From: Prevotella sp.
GTDB taxonomy: Bacteria; Bacteroidota; Bacteroidia; Bacteroidales; Bacteroidaceae
NCBI GenBank assembly: GCA_017413085.1
Contig: JAFPVC010000001.1
Location: 1 to 41,035 of the forward strand
DNA length: 41,035 bases
Direction: 5' to 3'
The notes under the pieces were generated by a model. The model was not told the DNA's origin, did not search any database, and was given only the letters and a program-made list of their open reading frames with translations. The translations under genes were made by a program, and so were the position numbers. Of this stretch, positions 22,165-26,040 are shown piece after piece (the stretch's first letter is position 1; each line of letters opens with the position of its first letter).

Positions 22165-22308
22165 GCTTTTTTTCAATTTTTCAATTTTTCAATCCTTCAC
22201 CTCTTGTCTGATCACAGAGTGCGCCGGTTAATGAGTATTTGTCAACGTTATAAAATGGATTGTATTTATTTTTCTTTGAAATAATTTCGAAGTATGGAAA
22301 AAAGTTCG

Positions 22309-22316
22309 TATATTTG
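22309..22316 (+). promoter_or_regulatory. -7 box for the RelE-type toxin-antitoxin pair
   Basis: TATATTTG is a TAnnTTTG match ending 18 bases before the antitoxin ATG at 22335. Confidence 0.6.
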
Positions 22317-22334
22317 CATCTGAAAACAAAAAGA

Positions 22335-22586
22335 ATGGCTATGACACAGATGGTATTGAACATAGAAGACACAAGCCTCGTTCCAAGTCTTAAACAAATA
22401 CTCTGCGCAATCAAAGGGGTGACAATAGATAAACTTGTTACCTCTAATCCTGCAGTAACAGCAGAGAAAATGTTCATAAAAGAAACTATCACAAAAGGAT
22501 TTGAGGAGGCTCGCGAAGGACGTTTTGCAGGCGAGGATCTTACGACGCTTGACTCCTTGGTAGAAGAACTCAGAAGTGAGGTATAA
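22335..22586 (+). CDS. Antitoxin of a type II toxin-antitoxin pair
   Basis: The 83-residue protein lies 6 bases before a RelE/ParE-like toxin gene. I start it at MAMTQMVLNIED because this ATG follows the -7 box. The fold cannot be assigned with confidence. The N-terminal MVLNIEDTSLVPSLKQIL is a strand-helix pattern like small Bacteroidota antitoxins, and the C-terminus is acidic (EDLTTLDSLVEELRSEV), as expected for a toxin-binding tail. Confidence 0.75.
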   Translation: MAMTQMVLNIEDTSLVPSLKQILCAIKGVTIDKLVTSNPAVTAEKMFIKETITKGFEEAREGRFAGEDLTTLDSLVEELRSEV

Positions 22587-22592
22587 CAGATT

Positions 22593-22922
22593 ATGGTCAG
22601 ATTCAATTATACCGAGGAATTTCTGCGCCAAGCAAAACGATTAGCTAAACGTTATCGCTCACTTGCTGATGACATTGACGCTCTGCAACACGAACTGATG
22701 AAGAATCCGGAAACAGGAACATCCCTTGGTGGTGGCAAACGTAAAATACGCCTCGGAGTAAAGAGCAAGGGCGGTGGCAAACGCGGAGGACTCAGGGTGA
22801 TTACTTTAAACGTAGTCGTAGAAATGAATGATACGTGCATAAACCTGCTAACTATATATGATAAGAAAGAAATAGAAAACGTGTCAGAAAACTATATCAA
22901 TCAAATCATACGCAGCCTTTGA
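22593..22922 (+). CDS. RelE/ParE-superfamily toxin
   Basis: The 109-residue protein starts MVRFNYTEEFLRQAKRLAKR, has the LQHELMKNPETGTSLGGG core typical of this Bacteroidota toxin subfamily, and a very basic middle (GGGKRKIRLGVKSKGGGKRG). It ends with LLTIYDKKEIENVS, the strand-helix end of the fold. Relatives are ribosome-dependent mRNA nucleases. The exact activity cannot be read from sequence. It is coupled to the upstream antitoxin gene. Confidence 0.85.
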   Translation: MVRFNYTEEFLRQAKRLAKRYRSLADDIDALQHELMKNPETGTSLGGGKRKIRLGVKSKGGGKRGGLRVITLNVVVEMNDTCINLLTIYDKKEIENVSENYINQIIRSL

Positions 22923-23454: not shown

Positions 23455-25746
23455 TTATATGTAGAGCAGCTTGCTTACCTCTGCAGGATTGAGAGCCCAC
23501 TCATAGGTATAGCTTTCGTCTGCATCGCAGGCGTTGTCGACAATCTCCAATCCTTGACCATCAGCCTTCATGAGAAGTAATTCGCCAATTGTCATCTTGT
23601 CGCGAAGTCTCTTCAGTAATGCCTCGATCGATGTTTGGTTTGCACCGCGAAGCGTCTGTGCCGTAAACGGCATTTCAAGCCATATAATCTCTCGCGCCTT
23701 CACGTCAAGAATGCCAAATACTAATCCCTTGGCAAGGTTGCTTTCGCTGATACGGACCATGTGCTGAACGCATGATGGGTCGTATGCAACACCTGTCTTG
23801 TCGGAAACTTTCATCGGATTAGCCGAATCCATCCAACCAACAACGAGGTTCGGAGACAGTGAACCCATTGTATATGCATTACATGTGAATGTCACATACT
23901 GCGCTCCTGCAGCTTCCAGTTCTGGAAGCGAAAGTTCAATATATTCTGCCGTACCCACCATCTCGGGTATATGCTGAATGTCTCCCGAGTGCTTGGCACC
24001 CGTACACGTCAAATTGTAATACGCACAATCCTCACTTGTCCCGTCTGCATAGGAAATGCGGCAGCTCAAGTCCATGTCGAGGTGCTGCGCATGCAATCCT
24101 TTACCCCACTGAAGGAACAAACGCACCGCATCACCCTCTACGTGGAATTTCGTACCCATCAAAGCACACGATGTGTCTTGAATCGTTGTTGAGCGGTCGC
24201 CGACACTGATAGGAATGTCATGAAGCATAGGGTCTATGTAGATTGTCTTGTTCTCATTATGCACGTTTTTGAAACGTCTCTTCATAGACGAGCAATAGAG
24301 GTTGTCCACTGATTTCTGCATATCCTTCAGCTCTGCCTCGCTATACAGTGCAGTCATTGGATTTGAAGATAGGGGATGCGTGCCTCCTGTCAAGGGCCGT
24401 GCAATGCGTGCAGCGTTTGGAGTGAAGTATGTTTCTGCAGCATTTCCCAAAGAAAGCAGTAATCGTGCAGGCACATTTTCTGCTATCTCCTCAAAGGCCT
24501 TCAGCGTGTCTTCCTTGCCAAATCTCAGCATGGTAGCAAAGAGGCATCGGGCAAATAGCCCGGGCCTTTGCTTGAGAAGACTGAAAACTGTAATGGCATC
24601 ATTCTTTTTACGTGCAGCGTCAACCTTGCCCTGCCATGTCTTATAAGACTGCTTGTAGAACACGTCAAGAATCTCTTTAAGGTGCTCAAAGCCTTTTTTC
24701 CTTGAGTATTCACCGAGACGGAGAGCGTGAATCATACGTACCCACATTCCACGCTTGGGATTCATACACTCCATGACAGCATGAGTGGACATCGGCAGAT
24801 TGTTCAGCCATTTGGCAACGCGGAGACATGCTTTGCGGTCATATTTCAGCATCAGTTTGCTCTTCATCAGCCTTTTTGCCTCTGCATCCATAGCCTCTCT
24901 GTTGGTACTCCAAGCAAGCATCTGTTGTGCGCCCCACATATCACCGTTTAGTTTTGCTGCATGGGCAATAAGAGTCTTCGGTTCGATAATCTGTACGAGT
25001 CCAGTCTTCTCATACCACAGATATCGTAGCACGTCAGTGGGAGACTTGAAGATTTTCTGCGCTTCTTCCGCCTTTCCCTTCTCTACAAGGTATTTGGTTG
25101 CAATCATTGCCGTTTCCTTCATGGATATTTCCACGTCGGGCATATCGTAAATGTCCAGCAACAGAGTGAGGGAGTCTTTCTGCGTTTCATCAAGAGGAGT
25201 GGCAGAAGTCAGCAATGATACTAAAACATCTGTCATGTCTTTGTCTGTAAACAGACGCAGTTCCTTCAATTTGCTTCCCTGTCCCTTGTAAACAAAGTCT
25301 GCAGTTTTGAATGGCGTACCGCAGAAAGGGCATCCGTTATAGCGTTCCAAAGGGAATGTTCCCTCTGGGATAAGGTGTCCACAAGGCAATGTCGTTCCTT
25401 TGAATCCGAACTTCTCACCAAGGATATTGGCTAAGAAAGTAACAAGATGGTCGGCGCGAGTCTCGCCTGTGGGTATATCCCATCCTTTTACGAGAGAAGC
25501 CCAGTTAAGATTGGTTCCCATAACATTGTTGATGCACTTCGTAATCTGTGACAGCTCGTTAGCAGAAACAGCATTCAAGGCGTGGAGAAGCTCCTCGGTT
25601 ACGCAGAACCCGTTCTCACGGAGACGTTCCGTGAATGCCATAACAGGCACGGATACAGACGAACTCATGTCAATGTCATTTCTCTCAATGCCAAGGTAGA
25701 TGGCTTTGTAGCGAAGTGCTACTCTGACTAATTGCTTGTTTATCAT
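23455..25746 (-). CDS. RING-finger/TerD-like protein (MXAN_6230/SCO0854-like)
   Basis: The 763-residue protein starts MINKQLVRVAL. Near residues 140-165 is a RING-like segment with CGH and CPFCG as zinc ligands. The middle is a long helical region. The C-terminal third matches the TerD fold: LDMDLSCRISYADGTSE, GAKHSGD, IELSLPELEAAGAQYVTFTC. This order matches what I recall as the MXAN_6230/SCO0854 RING-domain family associated with stress (Ter) systems. The family name is from memory and moderately certain. No other ter genes are in the window. Its leader holds three related structured repeats. Confidence 0.6.
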   Translation of the reverse strand: MINKQLVRVALRYKAIYLGIERNDIDMSSSVSVPVMAFTERLRENGFCVTEELLHALNAVSANELSQITKCINNVMGTNLNWASLVKGWDIPTGETRADHLVTFLANILGEKFGFKGTTLPCGHLIPEGTFPLERYNGCPFCGTPFKTADFVYKGQGSKLKELRLFTDKDMTDVLVSLLTSATPLDETQKDSLTLLLDIYDMPDVEISMKETAMIATKYLVEKGKAEEAQKIFKSPTDVLRYLWYEKTGLVQIIEPKTLIAHAAKLNGDMWGAQQMLAWSTNREAMDAEAKRLMKSKLMLKYDRKACLRVAKWLNNLPMSTHAVMECMNPKRGMWVRMIHALRLGEYSRKKGFEHLKEILDVFYKQSYKTWQGKVDAARKKNDAITVFSLLKQRPGLFARCLFATMLRFGKEDTLKAFEEIAENVPARLLLSLGNAAETYFTPNAARIARPLTGGTHPLSSNPMTALYSEAELKDMQKSVDNLYCSSMKRRFKNVHNENKTIYIDPMLHDIPISVGDRSTTIQDTSCALMGTKFHVEGDAVRLFLQWGKGLHAQHLDMDLSCRISYADGTSEDCAYYNLTCTGAKHSGDIQHIPEMVGTAEYIELSLPELEAAGAQYVTFTCNAYTMGSLSPNLVVGWMDSANPMKVSDKTGVAYDPSCVQHMVRISESNLAKGLVFGILDVKAREIIWLEMPFTAQTLRGANQTSIEALLKRLRDKMTIGELLLMKADGQGLEIVDNACDADESYTYEWALNPAEVSKLLYI

Positions 25747-25761
25747 AGTCTTTAAAATTAA

Positions 25762-26004
25762 AAGGTAATTGAGTGGCTGAAAACTCTGGAATGTTCTATA
25801 GAAGTAAGCCACTCTTGGACCTTGTTAATATATGGAGCAAGGAAATTGTAGGACTTGTACTGGTATCTGATCAGGGATATAGAAGTAAGTTCCACTTGGT
25901 CCTTGCTTAGCTCTTCAAAAAAAGAAGCGGAAATTGGTGCTTTAGTAAAATGCCCGCGTTGGCAGGCTCAGGATGTTTGAAGTAAAAGCCCCTTGGTCCG
26001 CTTC
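25762..26004 (-). ncRNA. Three related structured repeats in the RING/TerD-like leader
   Basis: In transcript order the units are 26004-25924 (81 nt), 25907-25836 (72 nt) and 25823-25762 (62 nt). The first two have closing stems of 7 bp (GAAGCGG/CCGCTTC and AGCAAGG/CCTTGCT). The last has a shorter outer stem plus AGTGGCT/AGCCACT. Each carries a GGACCAAG-like block, a CTTACTTC-like block, then CAATTTCC or CAATTACC near the 3' stem. Bodies between these blocks differ. The start of transcription, near 26025, places all three in the gene's leader. Confidence 0.6.
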
Positions 26005-26032: not shown

Positions 26033-26040
26033 CAAAGTTA
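26033..26040 (-). promoter_or_regulatory. -7 box for the RING/TerD-like gene
   Basis: Read leftward this is TAACTTTG, with an ATTG-like -33 about 20 bases upstream. The start codon is at 25746, so the leader is about 280 nt. Confidence 0.6.

Follow-up and report, generated by a model that had tools for sequence, protein, structure and literature searches.

Putative Y-RNA-like modules in the leader of a RING–TerD gene of Prevotella and its relatives

Y RNAs have so far been viewed as partners of the protein Ro60. PMC7790460 describes a Salmonella operon that holds Rsr, Y RNAs and RtcBA and is regulated by damaged transfer RNAs (tRNAs), as well as a Deinococcus Y RNA that tethers Rsr to PNPase. 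Here we analyse a stretch of 41,035 nucleotides (nt) from Prevotella sp. (GenBank assembly GCA_017413085.1, contig JAFPVC010000001.1, positions 1 to 41,035; hereafter the window), in which three structured units recur in the leader of a gene encoding a protein with a RING finger, a long helical region and a TerD-like region (the RING–TerD gene). The units share a fold whose conservation is strongly supported by covariation, related units adjoin homologues of the gene, and in several relatives the same fold carries imitations of translation machinery. The three units are probably Y-RNA-like noncoding RNA modules encoded with a protein partner, which together would form an RNA surveillance or repair particle.

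Architecture of the array

A covariance model (R1), trained on other genomes alone, recovers all three units on the minus strand, and the next match in the 41 kb reaches an expectation value (E) of only 0.35. The units have a common order: an outer stem, a four-by-four internal loop (CCAA/AAUU), an eight-position inner stem, the motif UACUUC and a variable apical part, which we call the cargo; we refer to the remainder as the handle. Unit 1 (25924..26004, 81 nt) has an outer stem of 8 base pairs (bp; GAAGCGGA/UCCGCUUC), an inner stem paired at seven of eight positions (GGGGCUUU/AAAGCACC) and a 35-nt cargo with a GC-rich hairpin (34.1 bits, E 4e-7). Unit 2 (25836..25907, 72 nt) is closed by the 8-bp outer stem AGCAAGGA/UCCUUGCU, pairs at seven of eight inner positions (GUGGAACU/AGUCCUAC) and bears a 26-nt cargo (43.0 bits, E 1.3e-9). 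Unit 3 (25759..25826, 68 nt with flanks) has a 5-bp outer stem (AAGGU/ACCUU), a fully paired inner stem (GAGUGGCU/AGCCACUC, 8/8) and a 22-nt cargo (61.4 bits, E 1.1e-14).

A preliminary description of this DNA had reported the repeated blocks and their spacing, which are indeed present in the sequence, and unit sizes of 62, 72 and 81 nt, of which the latter two hold and the first becomes 68 nt under the covariance model. The closing stems that it put at 7 bp in two units are complementary, with lengths of 8, 8 and 5 bp across the three. It overlooked the inner stem that separates the CCAA block from the UACUUC block, and its blocks correspond to the loop and junction letters of the fold.

The whole leader is more stable than its shuffled counterparts (z −4.2; equal stability in none of 200 shuffles), and the single units fold with z of −3.4, −3.4 and −3.9 on the minus strand. 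Because the plus strand folds nearly as well (z −3.7, −3.3 and −2.1), folding alone leaves the strand undecided; the minus strand is fixed by the orientation of the gene and by the tRNA-like elements of relatives.

Selection on the fold

Units were gathered with a descriptor from 35 leaders of homologous genes, 33 of them distinct (L025 is identical to L010, and L039 to L016), with the gene fragments L022, L023, L043, L046 and L048 outside the set. The 73 canonical parses were reduced, by removing double parses, repeated leaders and two spurious parses, to 58 units including those of the window and 55 excluding them. R1 and the covariation test used the 36 of these 55 units with a four-base 5′ loop, with the cargo trimmed and the window units excluded, and R1 searches were run in Infernal with default or stricter filters. 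At least one descriptor-positive unit occurs in 29 of the 33 distinct leaders, the descriptor itself having been drawn from such leaders; L021, L028, L034 and L035 gave no descriptor unit, though similar sequences are present in them.

Across these 36 units from other loci, 118 of the 468 pair cells (13 pairs) show double changes, compared with a shuffled mean of 29.3 (0/500 as high). The covariation score reaches 0.736, compared with 0.207 after shuffling (0/500 as high) and 0.075 to 0.165 for slid partners. Two of the five measures are weaker, namely the number of pairs with a double change (10 versus 8.2 in shuffles; 31/500) and the number of further pair types (29 versus 26.0; 52/500). The paired percentage, 96.6 versus 69.6, is inflated because the descriptor demanded six of the eight inner pairs. 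Selection on the fold, which the preliminary description had surmised from its complementary stems, is thus strongly supported by sequence comparison, and both findings that it had set as tests, covariation and homologues outside the strain, were obtained.

In viral contigs, nine of the ten matches to a sequence-only pattern pair at just one to four of the eight inner positions, several of them being mutual copies, and one match pairs at all eight. A lone handle unit with 8/8 inner pairs, flanked by two open frames, is found on a phage contig from IMG/VR (L105:1925-1988; contig of 4757 bases). No partner gene was found on that contig, and the unit is possibly a decoy or an orphan.

Linkage to the RING–TerD gene

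Homologues of the gene are patchily distributed, occurring in 14 of 151 genomes of the family and in 6 of 247 in a sample of the phylum, own genome included. Of the 121 genomes of the family, 12 contain R1 matches, 24 in total: 11 gene-positive genomes have 21 of them immediately upstream of the gene, and G047 has the remaining three at a contig end, where the gene would fall past the edge. In the genome of the window R1 matches three times, every time in this array, so the units are not part of a longer common repeat, as the preliminary description had allowed they might be. At E up to 0.1, R1 also matches a Hymenobacter locus (L050) and loci from five genomes of another family (L072, L073, L074, L075 and L076).

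Beyond these groups, UUCCUUC or UACUUC hairpins adjoin the homologues of Streptomyces/Embleya, Niallia, Vibrio, Variovorax and phages, and in Variovorax, Niallia, Vibrio and the Rhodococcus phage Weasels2 they lie downstream of the gene. A strict descriptor, with a shuffled expectation of 0.05 to 0.65 per strand, found units beside the gene and on its strand at L087 (four), at L088, L089, L053 and L095 (two each) and at L055, L054, L094 and L096 (one each). The two Variovorax hairpins (L052) are recognizable only by their CUUCCUUCUAA letters. The handles across phyla are likely to be of common descent. Strict hits that fell within genes or on the opposite strand (one each at L052, L054, L087, L088, L089 and L093; two at L053) were taken as chance, as was an R1 match in L055 (19.3 bits) that falls on the opposite strand within an annotated gene. 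Two of the phage homologues (L089 and L090) stand near tRNA and transfer-messenger RNA (tmRNA) genes.

Partner protein and surrounding features

The RING–TerD gene of the window (23455..25746, minus strand) encodes 763 residues from an ATG at 25746, 12 nt beyond the end of unit 3. The earlier call of a RING/TerD-like protein was borne out. NF041916, the model for MXAN_6230/SCO0854 family RING domain proteins, gives a partial match over residues 33-699 (E 1.1e-41, 143 bits, under its curated cutoff of 600); Prok-RING_4 scores 23.4 bits, under its cutoff of 27; and the AlphaFold model (mean predicted local distance difference test score 76.7) shows helices across residues 169-494 and, after them, a predominantly beta region with a TerD match. 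The second-ranked Foldseek match of this model is the TerD homologue 2qz7 (E 0.011, probability 1.00), no match reaching E 0.001 or better, and only the TerD part of the protein is recognized by structure search.

A TROVE helical ring with a vWA domain, the combination that marks Ro60/Rsr, was not found in the protein. Its identity as a Ro60 homologue was considered and rejected, hhalign, PDB sequence searches and the best 50 of 1475 Foldseek matches all being unsupportive. Among viral contigs, the window protein gave no close relatives and the phage protein only the same phage, and the literature searched contained no paper on the MXAN_6230/SCO0854 family.

Just upstream of unit 1, TAACTTTG (26033..26040, minus strand) is a candidate −7 promoter element, TAnnTTTG being presumably the Bacteroidota-type −7 consensus. 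Of 39 leaders, 13 have this motif no more than 90 nt from where the array begins, versus 21 of 834 control windows.

Downstream of the RING–TerD gene, two neighbouring small genes (22260-22922, plus strand) resemble, by eye, a RelB/RelE toxin–antitoxin pair. At another locus (L015:1194-1375), a Bacteroidales small signal recognition particle RNA gene and a tRNA-Thr gene directly follow the 3′ end of the homologous gene.

Cargos in relatives

In 21 of 41 leaders, tRNA-like bodies carry the handle in permuted form. The bodies comprise an acceptor stem of seven positions, a 5-bp T stem and a T loop, with the anticodon arm swapped for the handle, whose order becomes inner strand, AAUU-NCC, short loop, GGN-CNAA, inner strand and UACUUC. 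The search for these elements gave 48 rows, including some ordinary tRNAs and chance parses, and we used the 36 rows that a loose pattern flagged as handle-bearing. Rfam scores such elements, 112-125 nt long, as tRNAs in 14 loci, and some of them lack a D arm.

Other cargos recall different parts of the translation machinery. At the loci from another family (L072-L076), a T-arm is the cargo of one unit. In genome G117 (L010:1287-1374, the same as L108:877-964), the handle bears a diverged copy of the GTPase centre of 23S ribosomal RNA (rRNA), which matches the Rfam large-subunit model at positions 1074-1162 (65 bits; z 25 against shuffles). Four units follow the gene in phage Weasels2, and the third is a circularly permuted tRNA, 3′ half before 5′ half, on an ordinary handle. 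The Bacteroidota elements and the phage element thus represent two opposite cuts, a permuted handle in a normal tRNA and a permuted tRNA on a normal handle, and both yield the same geometry, in which the handle replaces the anticodon arm and the cargo lies on the UACUUC side.

An rRNA origin of the small cargos was rejected, as the L010 cargo alone matches among 58, with half of the rRNA locus masked. A 16S fragment in G005 turned out to be a remnant of rRNA, and no handle was seen in it.

Comparison with Y RNAs

The preliminary description knew of no RNA class with this signature. At the gathering score Rfam indeed finds only two tRNAs in the window, and the best weak match in the leader has E 1.4, with no riboswitch or leader family; Y RNAs, by contrast, are close in architecture. 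Assignment to a known riboswitch or leader class was rejected, neither gathering nor relaxed thresholds in Rfam giving anything convincing.

The Y RNA family YrlA (RF02553), whose partner is the bacterial Ro60 protein Rsr, scores 28.9 bits in G117 (L108), 26.4 bits in Weasels2 (L087) and 21.7 bits at L123, all under its gathering score of 69, and has no match in the window leader up to E 10. The G117 match covers the junction of two tandem tRNA-likes and aligns, in order, an outer stem, an asymmetric loop, an inner stem, a tRNA 3′ half and a tRNA 5′ half, so that, as in YrlA, a tRNA-like body stands at the place of the anticodon arm. Unlike YrlA, these RNAs have other loop letters, the Bacteroidota examples have a permuted handle and an unpermuted tRNA, further cargos exist, and the partner has no recognizable TROVE domain. 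The hallmark of Y RNAs, a stem–internal loop–stem joined to a tRNA-like body, is thus present in the 21 tRNA-bearing leaders and in Weasels2 and absent from the units of the window, and the RNAs are not encoded beside a Ro60/TROVE protein. We call them Y-RNA-like rather than YrlA because the protein is not Ro60 by sequence or profile and the structure search shows its TerD part only.

Ro60 loci of Bacteroidota offer a further comparison. Stem-UACUUC hairpins are present at 7 of the 11 examined (L056, L058, L059, L060, L062, L063 and L135), a count made without a shuffled control and, for L056-L065, limited to rows with GTAG near the stem. We take these hairpins to be Y RNAs. As in the array units, an 8-bp stem runs directly into UACUUC (once UCCUUC), several cargos contain T-loop motifs, the cargo at L135 is a permuted tRNA-like, and the Ro60 locus of G044 has the same palindrome as the loci linked to RING–TerD genes (see below). 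The outer part differs, being GCCGUAG or similar, with another 3′ loop; the handle descriptor finds no match at Ro60 loci, R1 none in L056-L065, and Rfam names none of L056-L065 as YrlA at the gathering score. The stem-UACUUC junction thus seems common to both groups, with an outer part that varies with the protein.

Titles and abstracts searched, with most subscription papers outside reach, contain no description of RNAs beside RING–TerD genes, and this family of structured RNAs is apparently undescribed so far.

RNA-repair genes and a shared palindrome

In four genomes rtcB adjoins the locus: in G117 and G023 rtcB comes first, then the RNA array and then the gene, and a WYL/WCX regulator is divergently encoded; in G320 and G393 rtcB follows the gene. 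RtcB occurs in 11 of 18 gene-positive genomes, an association confounded by kinship because the gene-negative genomes searched all belong to the genus of the window and none has RtcB. A gene for a T4-type RNA ligase lies about 3 kb downstream of the RING–TerD gene in G356, and rtcR is near the Variovorax homologue.

A palindrome, TACGCA-N7-TGCGYA, occurs at 20 places in six genomes, 15 of these no farther than about 3.5 kb from the gene, and a reversed control pattern gave one match. Copies stand just upstream where RtcB (L128) or a T4-type RNA ligase gene (L129) is near the RING–TerD gene, and elsewhere the palindrome precedes rtcB in G083 and G017.

The palindrome is also found in other settings. 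At L135 (G044:C14:87000-93500), Y-RNA-like hairpins form an array in the leader of a Ro60 gene; the genes for RlaP, an AAA kinase and Thg1 are divergent from it, and the palindrome lies in between. In three genomes (L132, L133 and L134), the palindrome (TACGCAAAGACTATGCGTA or its complement) lies between genes that resemble RecO and GyrB by eye.

Discussion

In the model that we favour, each module combines an unvarying handle, made of an outer stem, the asymmetric CNAA/AAUU loop, an 8-bp inner stem and UACUUC, with a cargo that varies and lies on the side of UACUUC. The protein, with its RING, helical and TerD regions, would grip the handle and leave the cargo to project outward, and the particle would act like Ro60 with its Y RNA, in that the RNA would gate the protein or tether enzymes. 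The particle would survey or repair damaged RNA (probably tRNA), in concert with RtcB or a different RNA ligase in genomes that have one. RNase P and RNase Z may excise the tRNA-likes from the arrays, thereby freeing the intervening hairpins. The earlier suggestions of a protein-binding array or of processed small RNAs would thus have pointed in the right direction.

A closely related described arrangement is the Salmonella rsr-yrlBA-rtcBA unit, as set out in PMC7790460. In some relatives of the window a predicted RNA-binding protein, a tRNA-imitating RNA and the ligase RtcB may likewise form one regulated unit. They differ in having RING–TerD instead of Rsr and, in the Bacteroidota examples, a WYL-type regulator and the palindrome, and no RtcB was found in the genome of the window. 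The Salmonella and Deinococcus cases support the analogy only. The array of the window strain is a minimal version of the wider family; with three small-cargo units only, it may chiefly gate or regulate the protein.

The favoured reading extends to a broader proposal, on which we consider the evidence evenly balanced: that these RNAs form a second, Ro60-independent class of Y-RNA ribonucleoproteins in Bacteroidota, Actinomycetota, Bacillota, Pseudomonadota and phages, united by one protein family and a constant RNA handle, onto which evolution has mounted mimics of translation components (tRNA bodies of two topologies, T-arms, and the GTPase centre of the ribosome), and partly co-controlled with RNA ligases.

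Several results weigh against these proposals. The units of the window have no tRNA-like cargo, being small-cargo hairpins throughout, and among 58 cargos rRNA likeness is confined to the 23S fragment of L010, the next reaching z 3.2 (rRNA locus used with 3500 of 6901 bases masked). The partner protein has no TROVE match in Pfam, hhalign assigns TROVE a probability of about 0.2 percent (with nine, then ten TROVE sequences), and Ro60 is absent from the best 50 of its 1475 Foldseek matches. Outside Bacteroidota, R1 finds one Weasels2 unit only (20.8 bits) and none in L052, L053, L054, L088 or L089, and the strict descriptor gives nothing in L090, L091 and L092 and nothing convincing in L052 and L093. 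RtcB was not found in 7 of the 18 gene-positive genomes (G000, G033, G122, G136, G078, G036 and G044), among them that of the window (79% complete), or in any of the six gene-negative genomes searched, which are all members of the same genus as the window. In 12 further gene-positive genomes the palindrome occurs at 20 places, of which only three are at the gene locus (two in G117, one in G023), and it is absent from the window locus.

The alternative that survives best, an autogenous cis-regulatory leader, seems to us unlikely. The protein would bind its own leader and repress translation or stability, and the units would act in cis only. Many Bacteroidota leaders do keep the last unit near the start codon with a ACCUUUUA tail, the gap in the window being 12 nt, and the matches found adjoin the gene. 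However, the hairpins of Variovorax, Niallia, Vibrio and phage Weasels2 lie downstream of it, and autoregulation has no need of tRNA bodies with intact acceptor stems or of a 23S domain. Because the last unit of the window is 12 nt ahead of the start codon, autoregulation may be an added role of the RNA modules in this strain.

It is more doubtful still that the units are bait in a defence system, with cargos that mimic the targets of toxins or phage nucleases and whose cleavage triggers the RING–TerD protein. The tRNA-likes have no anticodon loop and so cannot bait anticodon nucleases, PADLOC gave no match, and PMC7790460 reports that YrlA fragments went undetected in Salmonella upon tRNA cutting. 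In favour of the idea, the cargos do imitate the tRNA body, the T-arm and the GTPase centre of the ribosome, some relatives have RNA ligases and WYL regulators nearby, homologues occur in phages, and one phage contig has a lone unit.

A tandem ligand-binding riboswitch or other metabolite sensor, which structured elements in tandem near a start codon might suggest, is highly improbable: Rfam has no riboswitch match, and the apical parts vary freely, to the point of whole tRNAs in relatives. The tandem cis-acting sensor of the preliminary description is not supported, as relatives have handles joined to tRNA bodies or to an rRNA domain, and some homologues outside the phylum have their hairpins downstream of the gene, a placement that a leader sensor could not have. 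A mobile or repetitive element or a chance fold, for which tandem copies inside one leader might speak, is scarcely credible given three matches only in the own genome, all here, and compensatory changes across genomes.

The Y-RNA-like modules would represent a class with another protein partner, and they are a strong candidate for more than that. If the interpretation is true, the Y RNA would be a general design, a handle with exchangeable cargo, that reaches beyond Ro60, and a function would be suggested for RING–TerD proteins and for parts of phage genomes. The cargo derived from the ribosomal GTPase centre raises the question of what such imitations recruit or block.
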